Below are positions 7,937 through 17,917 of a DNA stretch of 64,000 nt, piece by piece. The DNA lies in contig DATKXK010000009.1 of assembly GCA_035529075.1 (NCBI GenBank), forward strand, positions 1 through 64,000, written 5' to 3'. The position numbers were made by a program, and so were the translations under genes. The notes beneath the pieces were generated by a model. It saw only the letters and a list, made by a program, of their open reading frames with translations, did no database searches and was not told the origin of the DNA. The stretch is from Acidobacteriota bacterium (GTDB lineage Bacteria; Zixibacteria; MSB-5A5; GN15; FEB-12). Within the stretch, counting starts at the first letter, position 1. Every line of letters starts with the position of its first letter.

Positions 7937-10517
7937 TGCCGGTGGAATGGGTGAGGTCTATCTGGCTGAGGATACCGAACTGGGTCGTAAGGTAGCGCTC
8001 AAGTTCTTGCCGCCGCATTTGTGCCAGGAGGAAGACTGTCGGAAGAGGTTCAAGCGTGAGGCTCAGGCCGCCGCCAAACTGAGCCATCCCAACATCATTC
8101 ATGTCTACGAAGTCTCAGAGCATCAGGGCCGTCCATTCTTTGCCATGGAGCATGTTGAGGGCCGGTCCCTGCGGGAGTTTTCTGCTGAAAAAGACCTGCC
8201 TATCGAACAGATTCTTGAATTGGGTATCCAGATATGCGAAGGAGTGCACGACGCGCACGAAAAGGGCGTGACGCACCGGGATATCAAGCCATCAAATATC
8301 CTCATTGACTCACATGGCAGGGCGAAGATCGTCGACTTCGGTCTGGCATCCGTGGTAGGATCAGATCAGCTAACCAGGACCGGTTCCACTCTGGGTACGG
8401 TTGGCTATATGTCACCGGAGCAGGTGCAGGGGAAACCGATCGACCATCGCAGTGATCTGTTCTCGCTCGGCGTGGTCCTATACGAGTTGATTACCAAACA
8501 GAATCCGTTCAAGCGTGACAGTGAGGCGGCTACGCTAAAGGCGGTGAGTGATGACACGGCGCATCCCATGGCACGATATAGAGCCGATGTCCCGGATGGC
8601 CTGCAAGCTATCATTGACAAAGCCTTGGAGAAGGACGTCAAGACGCGCTACCAGCATGCGGACGGGATGCTGTCTGATCTCATGCGAATCAAACGGTCAC
8701 TGGAATCGGGGCAATCAGCAATATCAGTGTCGTCACCCGATCCCCATTTGAGGCAAACATGGTGGGGTGCAGGTGCTCTGATTGTCATTGTAGGCGTGGT
8801 TGCGGTCTTGCTAACCAAACCATGGAGCACGAAAACTGACGCAGATCGATCCGGGACGGTCATGCTGGCCGTGCTGCCCTTCGAGAACCTGGGTGATCCG
8901 GAAGATGAGTACTTTGCGGATGGTGTCACGGAAGAGATCACTACAAGTCTTGCGCGCCTGTCCGGTTTGGGTGTTATCTCGCGTACCAGTGCCATACAGT
9001 ACAAGGACACAGACAAGAGCTTGCGGCAGATCGGGAAGGAACTCAAGGTGGATTACGTCCTTGAGGGGACTATCCGCTGGGACAAGTCGGGAGCTAATAA
9101 CAGGGTGCGGATCAATCCGCAATTGATTCGGGTGGCTGATGACCTGCACCTGTGGGCAGACCGTTACGATGCTATCCTGATGGACATATTCGCAGTGCAG
9201 TCTACGATTGCTCGCGAGGTGGCCGCCGCACTTGACGTGGCGCTCTTGCAGTCAGAGCGGATAGGGCTCGCTGACCGGCCCGAGGTTGATCCTAAGGCAT
9301 ACGATTATTACCTGCGGGGCAAGCAGTATTTCTCAATAGCCCGCTACCGTCAGGATGAATTGCGGACCGCAGAGCAGATGCACCTCAAGGCTATTGAGCT
9401 GGCGCCCGCATTCGCTCCCCCTTATGCCGAACTCGGCGGCCTTTACACGGAGATACACTGGGATGGCATCGATACTACTCAGATAATACTAGATAGTGCC
9501 AAAGCACTCATTGATATTGCAGTCGGTCTGGCGCCCGAGTCCCCTGAACCCTACCAGGCACTCGGCTGGTACTACTACCACGGTCTGCATGATTTCGATC
9601 GTGCCCTCGACGCCTTTTCCACGGTGCTGCAACGACAACCAAACAACAGCCTTGCTATCGCCAGTGTGGCCTGGGTTGAGCGGCGACAGGGCAAGTGGGA
9701 GAAGGCAGTTGACGGCCTGCTCCGAGCTGTGCAACTGGACCCCCGAGAGCCCTGGTACTACCACGAGCTGGGCAATACCTACAATAGCAGTCACCGCTTT
9801 GAACAAGCTATTGTCAGCTATGAGCAGGCTATTGATCTCGAACCTGACAATGAATGGGCTTTTTTTGGAAAATCGTGGGCGGTACTAAACGCCACAGGTG
9901 ACCCGGAGGCGGCCCTGCAGGTGATTAACGAAGGCTTCGTCTTTAGTCCCCGTTCAGCTTCGCTCATTTTCTTGGCAGTCTATTGTAATCTCTGTACCGG
10001 CAACTACCAACGTGCGCTCGACCTGATGACCGGTCCAAAGGACGTTTTCTTATGGCAATACCAGGATGGAGTAGACTACTATTATATGAAGGGCATGACA
10101 TATGCACTGATGCAACAACCAGATGTGGCGCGTCCGTACCTCGACTCGGCCCGTATCATCATAGAAAGTATGGTCTCGACCGACCCGGATGTCGCTGCCG
10201 ATCAAAGTTACTTGGGTAAGATTTATGCGGCCCTCGGCCGAAATGCCGAAGCCATTGCCGCCGCACGGCGCGGCGTTGAATTGCTCCCGGTTAGTATCGA
10301 TGCCCTCGATGGCCCGGACCGCATTTGGGACCTGGCAACGGTATACACCCGCGTTGGCGAACGTGATCTGGCTATCGACCAGTTGGATTCCCTTTTCCTT
10401 ATTCCCAGCGAAGTATCCGTCAACTGGCTGAAGATTGCCCCGGAGTTTATCCCCCTCCGTGACCACCCGCGCTTCCAGGCGCTGATCGAGAAGTATGAGA
10501 AGGAACATGGGACCTGA
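7848..10517 (+). CDS. Receptor-type Ser/Thr protein kinase with TolB/FlgO-like and TPR domains (kinase 2)
   Basis: The ATG lies inside the end of kinase 1 (ATGGAACCTGA), with AAGGA just before it. The 889-residue product is a paralogue of kinase 1. The kinase domain has Lys 52, HRD 143-145 and DFG 163-165, all intact. A membrane helix at about 305-325 ('GALIVIVGVVAVLL') is followed by the same 'VLPFENLGDPEDEYFADGVT' module and a TPR array. Its last 18 residues are the same as those of kinase 1. Kinases 1 and 2 are therefore a recent tandem duplication with strong divergence in the TPR part, which would allow different ligands or partners. Targets are unknown. The stop overlaps the start of kinase 3. 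Confidence 0.92.
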   Translation: MEPDDDKTQTHVVLTQGTQVGHYKIIEKIGAGGMGEVYLAEDTELGRKVALKFLPPHLCQEEDCRKRFKREAQAAAKLSHPNIIHVYEVSEHQGRPFFAMEHVEGRSLREFSAEKDLPIEQILELGIQICEGVHDAHEKGVTHRDIKPSNILIDSHGRAKIVDFGLASVVGSDQLTRTGSTLGTVGYMSPEQVQGKPIDHRSDLFSLGVVLYELITKQNPFKRDSEAATLKAVSDDTAHPMARYRADVPDGLQAIIDKALEKDVKTRYQHADGMLSDLMRIKRSLESGQSAISVSSPDPHLRQTWWGAGALIVIVGVVAVLLTKPWSTKTDADRSGTVMLAVLPFENLGDPEDEYFADGVTEEITTSLARLSGLGVISRTSAIQYKDTDKSLRQIGKELKVDYVLEGTIRWDKSGANNRVRINPQLIRVADDLHLWADRYDAILMDIFAVQSTIAREVAAALDVALLQSERIGLADRPEVDPKAYDYYLRGKQYFSIARYRQDELRTAEQMHLKAIELAPAFAPPYAELGGLYTEIHWDGIDTTQIILDSAKALIDIAVGLAPESPEPYQALGWYYYHGLHDFDRALDAFSTVLQRQPNNSLAIASVAWVERRQGKWEKAVDGLLRAVQLDPREPWYYHELGNTYNSSHRFEQAIVSYEQAIDLEPDNEWAFFGKSWAVLNATGDPEAALQVINEGFVFSPRSASLIFLAVYCNLCTGNYQRALDLMTGPKDVFLWQYQDGVDYYYMKGMTYALMQQPDVARPYLDSARIIIESMVSTDPDVAADQSYLGKIYAALGRNAEAIAAARRGVELLPVSIDALDGPDRIWDLATVYTRVGERDLAIDQLDSLFLIPSEVSVNWLKIAPEFIPLRDHPRFQALIEKYEKEHGT

Positions 10518-10595
10518 CGACGACAAGACGCAGACTCACGTGGTCCTGACACAGGGCACACAGGTCGGTCACTACAAGATCATCGAAAAGATCGG
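10461..10595 (+). repeat. Junction repeat between kinases 2 and 3
   Basis: This is the second copy of the 135-base junction unit at 7802-7936. It covers the end of kinase 2 and the start of kinase 3. It ends at the glycine-rich loop codons, beyond which the kinase 2 and kinase 3 coding sequences diverge normally. Confidence 0.9.
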
Positions 10596-13524
10596 CGCCG
10601 GTGGGATGGGTGAAGTGTATCTTGCCCTTGATACAAAACTTAATCGCAAGGTCGCCCTGAAATTCCTGGCATATCACTTGTGTCAGGAGAGAGACTGCAG
10701 GGCCCGTTTCACACGCGAAGCCCAGGCGGCCGCGGGTCTGGATCATCCCAATATCGTTCCCGTACATGAAGTCAGTGAATATCAGGGTCGTCCGTATTTC
10801 GCCATGGCCGCGATTGACGGGCAGTCGCTACGGGAATACCTGTCGGGAAAGCAACTGTCAATTAAACGCGTACTCGAGTTGGGCATTCAAGTTTGCGAGG
10901 GTCTGCGGGCCGCACACGACAAAGGGATCATCCATCGGGATATTAAGCCGTCGAACGTGCTTATTGATGAACGTGGGAGGGCGAGGATTGTCGACTTTGG
11001 GCTGGCGACCGTCAGTGGTGCGGATCAACTGACCAAGACCGGATCGACCCTCGGTACTATAGGGTACATGTCGCCGGAGCAGGTGCGGGGTGAAGCGGTC
11101 GACTTCCGCAGCGATCTGTTCTCGCTCGGTGTTGTGCTGTACGAATTGGCTGCGCTGAAAGGCCCGTTCCAAAGAGATTCCGAGGCGGCGACCCTGCACG
11201 CCATCACGCACGAAACTCCGAAGCCGCTATCCAGTTGGCGTGCGGATGTTCCGAGCAGGCTCGAGAACGTCGTGAGCAGGGCGCTTGAAAAAGACAGCGC
11301 AAAACGTTACCAGTCTGCGGAAAAGATGCTGCTGGATCTCCGGGATCTGCGCAGGCAATTGTCGGTGACCGAGTCAAGAGCAGTCGATCTCAAGGCAGTT
11401 TGGCGTATCCTTAAGAAGCCGCGTGTCGCGATCCTTCTGACTGTCACTCTTGGCGCTGTGGCGGTAGCCATATTCTTGGGATATCAACACAGAATGAACG
11501 TGCGGGAGGCGGGAGCGCTCCTGCCGGACATTGAGCGGCTGGCCCAGGCAGAGGAGTACTGCCGGGCATTTGACCTGGCTGTGAGGGCCGGCGAGTATCT
11601 TCAGAATAATCCGAAACTAGACAGCCTGATGCCGGTAGTATCCGATATACTCTCTGTTAGCACGCAGCCCGAAGGAGCGCGAGTCTATCTGAAGTCGATT
11701 GCGTTTACGGAGAGTGAAGAACAGCAGGAGCGATATGTCGGTGTTACGCCCGTCAGTGACTTGCCCATCGCCCGTGTAGATCACATCGTACGGTTGGAGA
11801 AGGAGGGATATACCCCGCTGACCCGCCTTGTAACGAGTCGGCTGAACAGAATCGAGGGTTGGGCGTTCGGGTCATCCGCTAACAGTGTTCAGATGGAGAT
11901 CCGGTTGACTGAAGCGGGGGCAACCCCTGAGAACATGGTCTTCATTCCGGGAGGGGAATACAGACTGGTCGGATGGGGAGCGCCCTCGGCCGCCGAGGTT
12001 AATCTGGCGGGATTCTTCATTGATGAATACGAGGTAAGCAACGAATCATTCAAGGCCTTCGTCGATGCCGGAGGCTATTTGAGTGCGGAATACTGGAGGT
12101 TTCCCTTTACCAGGGATGGGGCAAATCTGACCAGAGAACAGGCCATGGGTTTTTTCAAGGACCGGACCGGTCTTCCCGGTCCGCGTGGGTGGATCAACCA
12201 GGTATACGCTGAAGGTCAGGGTAACTATCCGGTGACCGGTATCACCTGGTATGAAGCGGCGGCTTACGCCGAATTCGCCGACAAGAGCCTGCCTACCGCT
12301 TTTGAGTGGGAGATGGCCGCAAGAGCCGGCCAATTCACTCACACGTTTGGCGTAGTCATGCCCTGGGGATATATCGATCCCAATGAGACAGTGAAGATGC
12401 GGGCGAATTTTGAGGGGCGGGGACTATGTCCCGTTGACGCGTATGAATTTGGCATCAGTCCTTACGGTTGCTACAACATGGCCGGTAACGTCAAAGAGTG
12501 GTGCCGGAATCGATCGAAGGAAGGTTACGTGGTAACGGGGGGTTCCTGGGAGGATCCTGCGTATATGTTTGCCTATTACGGATCTGTCTCGGGTTTTCAC
12601 TCATCTGGCTCACTCGGATTTCGTTGTGTCCGCAACACCACGGATGATGACCGTGACCAGGGGGCATTCGCGTTCAATCCGGAGATGGCAATTCCTGCTC
12701 ATACGCCAATTGATCAGGAGACATTTCAGACCTTCTTGAGCCATTATCAGTACGATCGCAAACCGCTTGATGCTCGAGTCGTGGAAGTAGAAGAAACAGC
12801 GGATTGGGTCAGAGAGAAAGTGACTTTCAACGGCGTGAATGGTGATACCATCATTGCCTATATGTACCTTCCCCGGCAGGCGGCCGAGCCGTACCAGTGC
12901 CTGAGTTTTATTCCGGGGGCGAATGTGTTTTGGGCGTCGCCCGTTCCCTGGAACGCCGAATGGCTGCTTGCACCTCATATAAAGGCGGGACGAGCCGTAC
13001 TGGCGGTGGTGCCGAAAGGAGCAGTGGAAAGAGGATGGGGTCCCCATCACAGCGATCCCGACCTCCACACGGTGAAATACCGTGAGCAGATAATTCTCTA
13101 TGCGACGGAGTTCAGCCTGGGGCTTGATTATCTATCCGGCCGGAGCGACATAGACATGGGCAGAATCGCTTATGTCGGATTAAGCTGGGGCGCCGAGGAT
13201 GGCCCGATTTTCGTTTCTGTCGACAACCGATACCGTTCGGTTGTTTTTATTGGCGGTGGTTTCAGCGAATCAGATTCGCGAAAACTTCCCGAAGCGAATC
13301 CCATGAACTTTGCTCCATATGTTACTTGTCCGGTAATGCTCCTCAACGGAAAATATGATGAGACCACAACGTACGAGATTGAAGGTCGTGCCCTGTATAA
13401 TCTTCTTCCGGAGCCCAAGAGACTTGCCCTTCTTGAAGGTGGACATTGCCCGCCGCTGGAGGTGAGGGTCCCGGTCATCGAGAAATGGCTGAATGAGACC
13501 ATGGGGGCGGTCAGGCGCGAATAG
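10507..13524 (+). CDS. Ser/Thr protein kinase fused to PEGA, SUMF1-like and alpha/beta-hydrolase domains (kinase 3)
   Basis: The start is placed at 10507 by analogy with kinase 2 (MGPDDDK); an in-frame ATG at 10495 is possible. The kinase domain has HRD 143-145 and DFG 163-165 intact. A membrane helix follows at about 303-323, then a PEGA-like module ('VSTQPEGARVYLKS'). Next is a formylglycine-generating-enzyme/SUMF1 domain ('MVFIPGGEYRL' to 'GSLGFRCVRNT'). Last is an alpha/beta hydrolase with nucleophile elbow 'GLSWG', 'NGKYDE' and 'GGHCPP'. I do not see the paired catalytic cysteines of true FGE, so that domain is probably a binding module. The hydrolase appears to have a complete Ser-Asp-His set. 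It was presumably assembled by exchanging the C-terminus of the kinase 1/2 type gene. It is followed by repeat copy 4. Confidence 0.9.
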   Translation: MGPDDDKTQTHVVLTQGTQVGHYKIIEKIGAGGMGEVYLALDTKLNRKVALKFLAYHLCQERDCRARFTREAQAAAGLDHPNIVPVHEVSEYQGRPYFAMAAIDGQSLREYLSGKQLSIKRVLELGIQVCEGLRAAHDKGIIHRDIKPSNVLIDERGRARIVDFGLATVSGADQLTKTGSTLGTIGYMSPEQVRGEAVDFRSDLFSLGVVLYELAALKGPFQRDSEAATLHAITHETPKPLSSWRADVPSRLENVVSRALEKDSAKRYQSAEKMLLDLRDLRRQLSVTESRAVDLKAVWRILKKPRVAILLTVTLGAVAVAIFLGYQHRMNVREAGALLPDIERLAQAEEYCRAFDLAVRAGEYLQNNPKLDSLMPVVSDILSVSTQPEGARVYLKSIAFTESEEQQERYVGVTPVSDLPIARVDHIVRLEKEGYTPLTRLVTSRLNRIEGWAFGSSANSVQMEIRLTEAGATPENMVFIPGGEYRLVGWGAPSAAEVNLAGFFIDEYEVSNESFKAFVDAGGYLSAEYWRFPFTRDGANLTREQAMGFFKDRTGLPGPRGWINQVYAEGQGNYPVTGITWYEAAAYAEFADKSLPTAFEWEMAARAGQFTHTFGVVMPWGYIDPNETVKMRANFEGRGLCPVDAYEFGISPYGCYNMAGNVKEWCRNRSKEGYVVTGGSWEDPAYMFAYYGSVSGFHSSGSLGFRCVRNTTDDDRDQGAFAFNPEMAIPAHTPIDQETFQTFLSHYQYDRKPLDARVVEVEETADWVREKVTFNGVNGDTIIAYMYLPRQAAEPYQCLSFIPGANVFWASPVPWNAEWLLAPHIKAGRAVLAVVPKGAVERGWGPHHSDPDLHTVKYREQIILYATEFSLGLDYLSGRSDIDMGRIAYVGLSWGAEDGPIFVSVDNRYRSVVFIGGGFSESDSRKLPEANPMNFAPYVTCPVMLLNGKYDETTTYEIEGRALYNLLPEPKRLALLEGGHCPPLEVRVPVIEKWLNETMGAVRRE

Positions 13525-13933: not shown

Positions 13934-14584
13934 ATGAGCCGATCGAGCAAAAGCAGGGCACTCATAGAAAATGCCCGGAAAAATCGCTTTGTCGGCCGGT
14001 TGTCCGAAGACGGTTGTCTGGTCAACCTGGCCGGGAACTATGACTACCTGCAGCTCCCGTATTACGTGTCTGAAGACTACGAAAACGAGGGCAAGCCGAT
14101 CCGGCCGACCTGCAAGGACATGATTGACGCCTATGTACCGCCTCTTTTCTTGGAGAAAGCCAGATTGGCCGGTGTCGCCGTTCCCGAGTTCTACATAAGC
14201 AACGGCTATTTCGAGCCGCCCGTCATTGTCGATCCCATCAATCCATTCACGTTGAAGGGGCGGGTGGTTCTCAAGCCGAGCCGGGCCAAGAGCATAGCGA
14301 AATCCCTGACACGCAACTACACCTATGCCGTGTGCTGCCAGGAGTTGCCGCATGGAAGTCAAATTGTCTACTTCAAGGCGATTCTCGGCTGGTGCGCTAT
14401 TGGCCGGTTCGGGCAACTTGCCAGGACCATCTGGGACGTGTTCAGCATTCCGGTGGCCCGGGTGCGAGCGATCAGAGTTGCCGATGACAAACTGCTGCTT
14501 AGTGATATTGGCCTGCTCCCGTTTGCCGACCTGGCCCTGCGGGAGATCGCGTACATTCAGGAGCGCGTGATATGGGGCAACTAG
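13934..14584 (+). CDS. RLAN-domain protein (RimK-like ATP-grasp N-terminal partner)
   Basis: The 216-residue protein ('GRLSEDGCLVNLAGNYDYLQ', then 'LPYYVSEDYENEGKPIRPTC') matches the RLAN domain described by Iyer and Aravind as the N-terminal module of RimK-like ATP-grasp enzymes. In many genomes it is fused to the ATP-grasp domain. Here it is a separate gene whose last 13 bases overlap the ATP-grasp gene in another frame. That gene has its own ribosome site, so the split looks genuine and not a simple frameshift. The domain's biochemical role is not known; a part in substrate binding or peptide tagging is inferred from neighbours. Confidence 0.8.
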   Translation: MSRSSKSRALIENARKNRFVGRLSEDGCLVNLAGNYDYLQLPYYVSEDYENEGKPIRPTCKDMIDAYVPPLFLEKARLAGVAVPEFYISNGYFEPPVIVDPINPFTLKGRVVLKPSRAKSIAKSLTRNYTYAVCCQELPHGSQIVYFKAILGWCAIGRFGQLARTIWDVFSIPVARVRAIRVADDKLLLSDIGLLPFADLALREIAYIQERVIWGN

Positions 14585-15450
14585 GCATCTACGTCGAGCG
14601 TTACACTATTTCGAGTTCGGACGAGATGAACTCGCTCATGCGTCTCAGTCAGGTGGGTCGCAGGCTGGGACATCGCGTGGATTTTCTGTTTCGTCCTGAC
14701 ATGTACAAGATACCAGAATACGACGCCATCTACATCCGCGCCTTAACCGACCCGCTGAACTCCGCCTACGTGGCGTCGAGGACGGCGGAGATGCACGGAC
14801 TGCTCGTCGTCGATGATCCTGACTCCATTCGCATATGTTGTGACAAAGTCAGCATGTACCGCCACCTGATGCGGCACGGCGTGCCTATTCCGGAGACGGA
14901 GATAATTGATGAGAATGAGATCAGCCTGGAACTGGGGCAGCGGCTCCTTGATCGGTTCGGCGATCCGGTGGTGCTCAAAGCTCCAAACAGCAGCTTCTCG
15001 ATGTACGTCGAGAAGGCATCCACACCGCGGGAGATCAGCACGATAGCAAGACGATTCCTGCGACGGTCCGACCGGGTGCTGGCACAGCGGTTTGTCAAGT
15101 CATCATTCGATTGGCGCGTAGGCACCCTTGGAGGCGAGCCGCTCTACGTGTGTCAGTATGTCATCCCGAAGAACAGGTGGAAAATACTGACCTACACCAG
15201 CGACGGTAAAGCGGCATATGGTCCCATAAGGCCCTTCCGCATCGCCGAGGCACCGGCGTTGCTGCTGCAGACGGCCGTGCAAGCGGCCAATGCGATCGGC
15301 CGGGGGCTCTACGGCGTAGATGTCAAACAGGTAGCGGATCAGTTCATCGTTATCGAGGTGAACGATAATCCTACCATCAACGCCGGCGAAGAGGACATGC
15401 TTGAGGGAGATCTGTACGAACGGCTGGTCAGACATTTATTAGCGTCGTGA
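14572..15450 (+). CDS. RimK-type ATP-grasp ligase
   Basis: ATG with AGGAG eight bases upstream, inside the end of the RLAN gene. The 292 residues show a preATP-grasp segment ('LGIYVERYTISSSDEMNSLM'), then 'DKVSMYRHLMRHGVPIPET', typical of RimK enzymes. ATP-binding lysine 'PVVLKAPNSS' and the metal-binding end 'YGVDVKQVADQFIVIEVNDN' with 'PTINAG' are present. Family members form amide bonds between a carboxylate and an amine, for example glutamate tailing of a protein or peptide. Context with an acyltransferase-peptidase fusion suggests formation and trimming of a peptide conjugate, but no precursor peptide was found next to it. Confidence 0.88.
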   Translation: MGQLGIYVERYTISSSDEMNSLMRLSQVGRRLGHRVDFLFRPDMYKIPEYDAIYIRALTDPLNSAYVASRTAEMHGLLVVDDPDSIRICCDKVSMYRHLMRHGVPIPETEIIDENEISLELGQRLLDRFGDPVVLKAPNSSFSMYVEKASTPREISTIARRFLRRSDRVLAQRFVKSSFDWRVGTLGGEPLYVCQYVIPKNRWKILTYTSDGKAAYGPIRPFRIAEAPALLLQTAVQAANAIGRGLYGVDVKQVADQFIVIEVNDNPTINAGEEDMLEGDLYERLVRHLLAS

Positions 15451-15454
15451 GATC

Positions 15455-16609
15455 ATGATGAACCGGCGAACCACCATCCGCCCGGCCGGCATCCACGATC
15501 TGAAGGATCTGCTCAGACTCGAGCATGCCGCCTTTGAAACGGATCGCTTCAGAGAAGACCAGATCGATTACCTTCTGACCCGTTCCCGTGCGACCGTGTT
15601 TGTGTTGGTGCGGAATTCGACCGTGGTAGGCGCGGCCTATATCCTGTGGAGAAAGTCGCACCAGGGCGCAAGACTTTACAACCTGGCCGTGGACCCGGCC
15701 TTCCAGGGGATGAAGTACGGCCTGAAATTGCTTCGGGAGTGTGAATTGGAGGCGGCCCGGCGCGATTGCCGCAGCATGACGCTGGAGGTACGCCGGGATA
15801 ACGAAGGCGCCATCAGGTTCTATGAGAAAGACGGTTTCGTAGTCGTTCGAAACCTGCCGGACTACTATGAAGACGGCATGGCCGGACTCAAGATGCGTAA
15901 GGAGCTGGACCCGGTGGCGAAGAAAAAGCTGAGGCTCGGCATTCCGTACCACGCCCAGACGCTCGATTTCACGTGCGGCCCCGCCTGTCTAATGATGGCG
16001 CTCAGGTACTTCTTCTCACGGATCGAACTGACCCGTACTCTGGAGATGCAAATCTGGAAGGAAGCCACGCTGATATTCATGACGTCCGGGTTTGGCGGCA
16101 CCGACCCGTACGGCCTGTCGCTCTCCACTGTCAAGAGAGGATTGGGTTGCCGTGTGATTATCTCGATGGACACCACGCCGATGCTGAGATCAGTACGTAT
16201 CCCGGTCAAGCGTGAGATCATGAAAATCGTGCACAACGACATGAAACGCCAGGCCCGGAAGCTGGGCGTGACCGGCGCCGTGTGCGAGTATGGCATCGAT
16301 GAGATCGTCTCAGCCCTGTTCAGAGGCTTGATTCCGGTGGCCCTGATCAGCACGTATCGGCTGACGGGCGATCAGGTACCGCATTGGGTTGTGGTTACCG
16401 GTTTTGACGCCGATCACGTGTATATCCATGATCCGGACGTGGCGTCCTACAGCGGGAACAGGTCGCGGGCCCGCCATCTGCGTATTGAGAAATCTGAGTT
16501 TCTGCGAATGAGTCGCTACGGCAAAGAGGCGTATCGGTGTCTTCTGCTGATCGGGCCACTACAGAAGCCTGACAGGTCAAGACCACGCTCCGGCCGCAAT
16601 GCGTCGTAA
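15455..16609 (+). CDS. GNAT acyltransferase fused to C39-like cysteine peptidase
   Basis: Starts four bases after the ATP-grasp stop. Residues 1-150 are a GNAT domain, with an acetyl-CoA motif region near 'LAVDPAFQGMKYGLKLL' and 'NEGAIRFYEKDGF'. Residues 160-375 are a papain-like C39 peptidase: Cys 174 in 'TCGPACL', His 310 in 'VPHWVVVTGF' and Asp in 'IHDPDV', so the catalytic set looks intact. There is no transmembrane or ABC domain, unlike bacteriocin exporters with C39. The same three-gene set (RLAN, ATP-grasp, GNAT-C39) is known from comparative genomics but, to my knowledge, its product is not established. Clearly one operon with the two genes before it. Confidence 0.88.
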   Translation: MMNRRTTIRPAGIHDLKDLLRLEHAAFETDRFREDQIDYLLTRSRATVFVLVRNSTVVGAAYILWRKSHQGARLYNLAVDPAFQGMKYGLKLLRECELEAARRDCRSMTLEVRRDNEGAIRFYEKDGFVVVRNLPDYYEDGMAGLKMRKELDPVAKKKLRLGIPYHAQTLDFTCGPACLMMALRYFFSRIELTRTLEMQIWKEATLIFMTSGFGGTDPYGLSLSTVKRGLGCRVIISMDTTPMLRSVRIPVKREIMKIVHNDMKRQARKLGVTGAVCEYGIDEIVSALFRGLIPVALISTYRLTGDQVPHWVVVTGFDADHVYIHDPDVASYSGNRSRARHLRIEKSEFLRMSRYGKEAYRCLLLIGPLQKPDRSRPRSGRNAS

Positions 16610-16751: not shown

Positions 16752-17099
16752 ATGCCGCGACCGAGGAAAAGACGATTTTGCCGACGATATCAGGCTGACA
16801 GAGTCTACAAGCCCCAGGGCATACCCCTGCGGCAGATCGATACGGTGGTGCTGGGGCTCGATCAGTTTGAGGCCATGCGTTTGTGTGACATCGAGCAGCT
16901 TGACCAGGAGGCGGCCGGCATGCGCATGGGCATTTCGCGCGGTACGGTACAACGGCTGTTATATCAGGGTCGCAAACAGCTTCTGGAGGCGATTCTGAAA
17001 AACTCTGCGGTAATCATCAATCTCAAAGAGAGTGAGGATCAGCATGCTGATATGCATTCCGTCAGGAGACGACGGGGGGATGGACAGCACCATTCATGA
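16752..17099 (+). CDS. DUF134 family DNA-binding regulator
   Basis: The 115-residue protein opens 'MPRPRKRRFCRRY' and has the DUF134 body 'IDTVVLGLDQFEAMRLCDIE', a sigma-like helix-turn-helix 'AAGMRMGISRGTVQRLLYQG' and a short tail. DUF134 proteins are small putative regulators often found beside NifX/NifB-like (dinitrogenase Fe-Mo cofactor family) genes, as here. The last 56 bases overlap the next gene, whose ribosome site is inside this frame, so the two are translationally linked. It may bind the palindrome in its own promoter; that is inference. An ArsR protein at 24458-24769 is the other candidate for the site. Confidence 0.88.
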   Translation: MPRPRKRRFCRRYQADRVYKPQGIPLRQIDTVVLGLDQFEAMRLCDIEQLDQEAAGMRMGISRGTVQRLLYQGRKQLLEAILKNSAVIINLKESEDQHADMHSVRRRRGDGQHHS

Positions 17100-17499
17100 A
17101 CACTTTGGATCGGCGCCGTATTTCACGTTGTATGATACCGAAACCGAGGAAATCAACGTGATTGAGAACCGTAATGCTCATCACAGTCACGGCACGTGTC
17201 ACCCCATGAGCCAGCTGGCCCGGTATCATATTGATGCCGTACTGTGTAGCGGCATGGGGCGGCGCGCCATCGAGGCGCTCAACGCGGAGGGAATCAGAAC
17301 CCTCGACACTGACGTTACCGCCACGAGGGAAGCCGTGAGAATGTTTTCCGAAGGGAGCCTGTCCGATATCGAGTCCGCACGTGCCTGTCACGGTCGCGGC
17401 CAGCGTTATGAGGGCACAACCGACCGCCGTGTGTGGGGCCGCGGGACGGGGCGTCATCAGGGAGCCGGGGACGGCCAACGGCATCGCAATCGTGGATAA
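17044..17499 (+). CDS. NifX/NifB-like dinitrogenase Fe-Mo cofactor domain protein
   Basis: ATG at 17044 is chosen over the GTG at 17032 because GAGGA lies five bases in front of it. The 151-residue product begins 'MLICIPSGDDGGMDSTIHEH' then 'FGSAPYF', the hallmark of the MTH1175/NifX-NifB family, with 'HSHGTCHPM' and 'DAVLCSGMGRRAIEALN'. The NifB/X fold binds iron-sulfur or Fe-Mo precursor clusters. Stand-alone copies in non-fixing bacteria have no settled role. No nif genes are in the window. The His- and Cys-containing loop could bind metal. The last bases overlap the GTG start of the thioesterase-like gene (GTGGATAA), making a probable three-gene operon. Confidence 0.88.
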   Translation: MLICIPSGDDGGMDSTIHEHFGSAPYFTLYDTETEEINVIENRNAHHSHGTCHPMSQLARYHIDAVLCSGMGRRAIEALNAEGIRTLDTDVTATREAVRMFSEGSLSDIESARACHGRGQRYEGTTDRRVWGRGTGRHQGAGDGQRHRNRG

Positions 17500-17917
17500 C
17501 CGCCTGCTTCAGACCCGGGCGTGCGCACACCCGGACTGCCCGCTTTGAAGTCCGGCCGACAGTCTCGGTCTGAGACTGAACATCGATGACTGCAGCGAGC
17601 GTGAAATATCAGCTCACGTCAATTGCCGCCGCGTGTTGCAAGGCTACCCCGCCATCCTGCACGGGGGAGTGGTTTCCCTGCTGCTTGACGGGGTGATGAC
17701 CAACTGTCTGTTTTCCGCAGGCATAACGGCCGTGACAGGACGGCTGGAGGTGCGCTACCTTCGTCCCGTCGCCATCGACCAGACTGTACACCTTTCCGCT
17801 CGCATTTTGAAATCCCGACGGACGCTGCATTACGTCGAGGCAGAACTGGTGCAGGAATCCGAGGTGAAAGTCACGGCCGTGGGCAGCTTTGTGGACCGTC
17901 GGGCCGCTTCGGGCTGA
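17492..17917 (+). CDS. Candidate selenoprotein: PaaI-type hotdog thioesterase with CxxU motif
   Basis: From GTG 17492, which overlaps the NifX stop, the frame runs to TGA 17917 with one internal TGA at 17546-17548 (codon 19). Read through, it gives 141 residues, the normal size for a PaaI-family hotdog protein. The protein shows 'CAHPDCPL-U-SPADSLGLRL', 'GYPAILHGGVVSLLLDG' (His 57, Gly 58, Gly 59) and 'LEVRYLRPV'. Homologues known to me have C-x-x-C followed by 'xxNPxGLxL' at this place, so the UGA replaces the second Cys. Homology continues on both sides of the UGA without a frame change. A SECIS-like hairpin follows. If UGA is read as stop, only the fragment from GTG 17633 remains, lacking this motif. 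The alternative is a nonsense-mutated pseudogene. The substrate is unknown; the family hydrolyses acyl-CoA thioesters. Confidence 0.75.
17546..17578 (+). promoter_or_regulatory. Bacterial SECIS-like element after an in-frame UGA
   Basis: UGA at 17546-17548. A perfect 7-bp stem (CAGTCTC 17560-17566 with GAGACTG 17572-17578) closes a five-base loop GGTCT (17567-17571). There are 18 bases between the UGA and the loop. In E. coli fdhF the loop also carries GGUCU and the distance is also 18 bases (recalled sequence). The bulged U of the fdhF upper stem is absent, which known bacterial SECIS variation tolerates. Confidence 0.75.

Follow-up and report, generated by a model that had tools for sequence, protein, structure and literature searches.

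The stretch analysed here, hereafter the window, comprises 64,000 nucleotides of contig DATKXK010000009.1 (assembly GCA_035529075.1) from a bacterium of the Zixibacteria, and its forward strand carries a gene of the hotdog (4HBT) superfamily at 17492–17917 whose frame contains an internal TGA. Direct reading of this segment gives VDNRLLQTRACAHPDCPL-TGA-SPADSLGLRL...RRAASG-TGA, with the sole internal TGA at codon 19 (17546–17548), in agreement with the first-pass annotation, which had put a single in-frame TGA there and proposed a new selenoprotein. The 142-codon frame would encode 141 residues, with selenocysteine (Sec) as residue 19. It opens with a GTG at 17492, overlapping the end of a NifX gene (stop codon at 17497–17499), and closes with a normal TGA stop at 17915–17917. 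An alignment of 51 sequences assigned an H-x-x-C-x-x-U motif (His13, Cys16 and Sec19) to 17528–17548, an invariant His-Gly-Gly of the hotdog active-site region (residues 57–59) to 17660–17668, and an invariant Asp66 to 17687–17689, all on the forward strand.

Homologues were sought in 84,980 species genomes, which returned 145 relatives; counts over 80 loci given below refer to the best 80 of these 145. The second cysteine of the HxxCxxC motif is Cys at 78 of the 80 loci and TGA at two, which bears out the earlier proposal that HPDCPL and SPADSLGLRL are family-like and that the TGA takes the place of the second Cys; Cys at the position of codon 19, suggested at the time as a check, is all but invariant. 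The two TGA loci lie in metagenome-assembled genomes of the same lineage, JAUXBO010000146.1 (Candidatus Zixiibacteriota) and JARGFS010000151.1, and match contigs C203 of genome G002 and C57 of genome G030 in the whole-genome search. Both homologues belong to another genus and are about 55% identical to the window protein, and within 132 genomes of the phylum the TGA form was found in these two and the window's genome only. Other close homologues surveyed have CxxC, with the sole exception of a same-phylum relative (L025:1501–1893, genome G078), in which CGC (Arg) at the position yields CxxR. Invariant in the 51-sequence alignment are Cys16, Cys/Sec19, His57-Gly58-Gly59, Asp66, Met69 and Thr82; His13 is kept in at least 90% of the sequences and Cys72 is nearly invariant.

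Past the TGA, comparison of the window gene with its two Sec orthologues gave nonsynonymous over synonymous divergences (dN/dS) of 0.37/1.64 and 0.38/3.33, ratios that are approximate because dS is near saturation. Neither a frameshift nor a further stop was found inside the domain relative to these orthologues, so that the frame is unbroken, as the first-pass annotation had stated. The comparison indicates that purifying selection acts on the coding sequence 3′ of the TGA, as befits a working gene read through UGA. A pseudogene, or a TGA arising from sequencing or assembly error, would account for an in-frame stop within a recognisable domain, but the identical TGA occurs in three species from separate assemblies, and the sole changed position is an invariant Cys. 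Since the downstream coding sequence is constrained, pseudogenisation, sequencing error and truncation were rejected; shared, constrained orthologues containing the TGA refute the first two, whose probability we regard as negligible, and none of the signs of a pseudogene listed beforehand, including decay beyond the TGA, was found. Alternatively, the UGA might end an 18-codon peptide, with a shorter protein starting at the GTG at 17633, from which a 94-codon frame is open. That product, however, would lose the first hotdog strands and the CxxC, although the residues preceding the TGA are conserved in the Sec species (HPDC-L) and in the continuous Cys homologues, and an internal restart would leave the hairpin and sel genes described below unexplained; we judge it very improbable.

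The hairpin, which resembles a bacterial selenocysteine insertion sequence (bSECIS), lies at 17560–17578 on the forward strand, with the stem CAGUCUC/GAGACUG and a GGUCU loop (17567–17571) that starts 18 nucleotides past the UGA. The loop presumably resembles the GGUC loop of Escherichia coli fdhF. An AGUCUC/GAGACU stem with the GGUCU loop is present 3′ of the UGA in the window and in both Sec orthologues (L046 and L047), so that two more species carry TGA and hairpin together, another point raised beforehand as a check. One stem pair is altered on both sides, from U-A to C-G, through Ser AGU/AGC and Arg AGA/AGG codons that are both synonymous, which constitutes a single compensatory base-pair change at the sequence level; the codons CTC, GGT and CTG are identical across the three Sec species. 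Published bSECIS rules (PMC13188914) were used as a test, and the window hairpin conforms to them with a loop of 5 nucleotides, 6–7 base pairs, a spacing of 18 nucleotides and a core energy of −10.2 kcal/mol. The cores of L046 and L047 reach −9.4 and −7.1 kcal/mol, respectively, the isolated core of the latter just missing the −7.5 rule. Among the 2183 TGA triplets on both strands of the window, 48 are followed by at least six perfect pairs that satisfy the loop and spacing rules, and only one of these 48 hairpins, that at codon 19, has a 5-nucleotide GGT.. loop. An Rfam scan of the window returned no matches at gathering score, which leaves the hairpin outside any Rfam family at that threshold.

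The window's genome (3.04 Mb in 21 contigs, 100% complete) contains all four of selA, selB, selC and selD, the presence of which had been proposed as a further check. On contig 14, a full-length selA (501 bits) is directly followed by a full-length selB (313 bits), and the same contig carries a tRNA-Sec scoring 68.6 bits with anticodon UCA (tca in ARAGORN). The selD gene has one internal TGA in SCAG-U-ASKLGPG, and that of the formate dehydrogenase alpha subunit (FdhA) has an in-frame TGA in ARI-U-HSSTVA; the loci of the Sec system, SelD and FdhA (L003, L155, L009, L157 and L164) are distributed over contigs 14, 11 and 6. Judging from these two TGA codons, the selenoproteins of this organism almost certainly include SelD and FdhA, both of them well known. 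Standard annotation would probably break both genes. Decoding of the UGA as Trp or Cys, whether through a near-cognate tRNA or through reassignment of the codon, has precedent in bacteria that have reassigned UGA. A global reassignment is, however, contradicted by the TGA stop of the hotdog gene itself, and such decoding is further opposed by the complete SelABCD set with its dedicated tRNA-Sec and by the position of the UGA, which coincides exactly with an invariant Cys and is followed by a bSECIS-like hairpin. We hold such decoding to be most improbable and, on strong comparative evidence, consider it very likely that UGA codon 19 encodes Sec.

SelB exceeded the cut-off in 14 of the 15 genomes of the clade, those with Cys forms included, with a partial match in G002; because it accompanies Sec and Cys forms alike, Sec use is a choice of the lineage that is not set by SelB. 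In a maximum-likelihood tree, the three Sec proteins and the Cys protein L064:4425–4811 (genome G039) form one clade (support 100/98), with the Cys form nested within the Sec clade (support 99/88). The simplest histories would be two separate changes from Cys to Sec or, alternatively, a single such change and one later reversion. Protein L064 is a candidate Sec-to-Cys reversion, and its genome still has SelB. A CFVCG-type hotdog paralogue in the window's genome (C14:293756–294160, L002) shares the domain and has a CxxC at the same place, but is 31% identical to the Sec protein, contains Cys instead of Sec and falls into a separate clade with 100/100 support.

The read-through protein matched Pfam 4HBT with E = 7.9e-12 and 45.8 bits, against a gathering cut-off of 20.6. 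It scored below the curated cut-offs of both the TIGR00369 domain (29.9 versus 36.6 bits) and the PaaI equivalog TIGR02286 (21.9 versus 118.9 bits). An AlphaFold model built on the 51-sequence alignment had a mean predicted local distance difference test (pLDDT) value of 94.4, and a Foldseek search with it against the PDB retrieved coenzyme A (CoA) thioesterases (2ov9, 4zrb and THEM2) with probability 1.00 and template-modelling (TM) scores of about 0.7–0.8. The first-pass annotation had called the protein a PaaI-type hotdog; the hotdog 4HBT assignment stands, whereas the nearest structures by sequence are of the THEM4/THEM2 type and PA5202-like, PaaI being more distant. The Zixibacteria protein can accordingly be placed, by sequence and predicted fold, in the hotdog acyl-CoA thioesterase superfamily, and thioesterase-like activity is presumed. 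It shares the fold of the 4HBT/PaaI-THEM-type thioesterases (PF03061; 2ov9, 4zrb, 2f0x/3f5o THEM2 and 4gah THEM4), as well as the HGG and Asp of their active-site region, and by analogy to THEM/PaaI-type enzymes Asp66 would be the candidate catalytic acid. The solved relatives match it mainly beyond the N-terminal CxxC segment, and none of those found is named as a selenoprotein.

Upstream on the same strand lie genes for a DUF134/sigma-70 region 4-like DNA-binding protein (16752–17099), the first gene of a small operon, and for a NifX-like protein with a Nitro_FeMo-Co domain (17032–17499), the conserved neighbour that overlaps the selenoprotein gene. The order DUF134–NifX–hotdog of the window becomes DUF134–NifX–TrmO-like–hotdog in L047, and L046 is without NifX at this place. 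At 47 of the 80 loci, a NifX gene is no farther than 3 kb from the hotdog gene; the two 4Fe-4S MinD-type ATPases are nearby at 22–25, DUF134 at 15 and a TrmO-like gene at 12; named records among the loci come from Planctomycetota, Verrucomicrobiota, Lentisphaerota, Krumholzibacteriota and Thermodesulfobacteriota. HxxCxxC hotdog genes (L046–L125) thus often adjoin NifX and 4Fe-4S MinD-type ATPases across many phyla, and the hotdog protein is apparently an undescribed member of a NifX/MinD cofactor gene cluster. In Desulfovibrio, NifX-type domains and related ATPases bind iron-sulphur (Fe-S) clusters, and MrpORP, a P-loop NTPase fused to a NifX-type domain, binds and transfers them (PMC6345978). 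The NifX/ORP-MrpORP gene clusters of anaerobes, which concern Fe-S and Mo cofactors, combine NifX-type (Di-Nase) proteins with 4Fe-4S P-loop ATPases, as is seen beside the hotdog gene, but unlike the hotdog-containing loci, the MrpORP paper mentions no thioesterase (PMC6345978). Given the conserved NifX/MinD neighbourhood, the hotdog protein is probably a component of a metal/Fe-S-cofactor process, its part therein being deduced from the neighbourhood alone.

Farther upstream, a single frame at 15455–16606 combines a GNAT acetyltransferase with a peptidase C39-like (DUF3335) domain and adjoins a RimK-like ATP-grasp protein (14572–15447), a pair that resembles a small peptide-modifying cassette. 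A long frame at 10495–13524 comprises, by eye, a serine/threonine protein kinase, a formylglycine-generating-enzyme-like part and an alpha/beta-hydrolase-like end.

In the mechanism that we propose, SelB with Sec-tRNA(UCA) would read UGA codon 19, aided by the hairpin 18 nucleotides downstream, to give a 141-residue product in which HxxCxxU replaces the HxxCxxC of the family. The gene would probably be co-transcribed with the DUF134 regulator and the NifX-type metallocluster protein, and its Sec product would serve the metal/Fe-S-cofactor process in which its Cys relatives take part. On the thioesterase domain, Cys16 and Sec19 would make up a redox-active selenenylsulfide/selenol pair that controls, or joins, chemistry on a thiol(ester) substrate. 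We lean towards such a redox pair on an acyl-CoA-thioesterase-type scaffold in preference to a metal ligand. Alternatively, with the Sec assignment unchanged, the (H)CxxU may bind a metal or Fe-S cluster, either between subunits or with NifX/MinD partners, instead of acting as a redox pair; the protein would then handle metalloclusters on a hotdog scaffold. This is suggested by the conserved NifX and 4Fe-4S MinD ATPase neighbours, by the near invariance of His13 and Cys72, by the binding and transfer of Fe-S clusters by MrpORP (PMC6345978) and by the predicted binding of atoms or chemical groups, chiefly metals, in about 20% of selenoprotein families (PMC13188914). Set against it, the CxxC is kept in the CFVCG paralogues, which are without His13 and Cys72. 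Moreover, a metal site of purely structural role would be an unusual place for Sec to stand in for Cys. We regard the metal-ligand function as possible but the less probable of the two.

Several points weigh against a redox selenoprotein as outlined above. The hotdog CxxC could bind metal, as just discussed. The second motif residue is not absolutely required in L025, given its CxxR, unless this copy is degenerate or in error; it may reflect either a real loss or one of these. The 61-nucleotide region 3′ of the UGA is no more stable than its shuffles (z = 0.13), the signal being a short hairpin rather than global stability, and in L047 an alternative pairing over 48 nucleotides is predicted to be more stable. 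The covariation in the hairpin rests on one base pair, because only three Sec-form sequences are known, and these come from two genera of one family.

As to novelty, the inventory of 119 prokaryotic selenoprotein families of May 2026 lists nothing under thioesterase, hotdog, PaaI or 4HBT (PMC13188914), consistent with the earlier remark that no hotdog thioesterase is among the known bacterial families. Likewise, no hotdog or thioesterase selenoprotein is among the nine deep-Sep families (PMC12013277), and nothing relevant emerged when the literature was searched for hotdog or thioesterase proteins containing selenocysteine, although unpublished catalogues could still list one. The bacterial CxxU selenoproteins SelW-like, AhpD-like, CMD-like and GrdA (PMC13188914, Table 1) share with the hotdog protein the placement of Sec second in a CxxC-like motif, a bSECIS directly downstream and decoding by SelB and tRNA-Sec, but their folds are different from, and unrelated to, hotdog. 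We therefore think it likely that the gene represents a new selenoprotein family and the first with a hotdog fold. Its CxxU protein would be a thioesterase-like part of a NifX/MinD gene cluster that is widespread and devoted to metallocofactors, and Sec would there make a thiol-based redox or cluster-transfer step more efficient in anaerobic Zixibacteria. Standard annotation would miss or truncate its gene. Both a fold and an enzyme class, presumably that of CoA thioesterase-like proteins, would be new to the selenoproteome, and since Sec generally sits at reactive positions, the CxxC that many hotdog proteins carry N-terminally would be marked as chemically important and not merely structural. 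Through the frequent proximity of NifX and 4Fe-4S ATPases, a largely uncharacterised pathway for metallocofactors in anaerobes would become open to testing.
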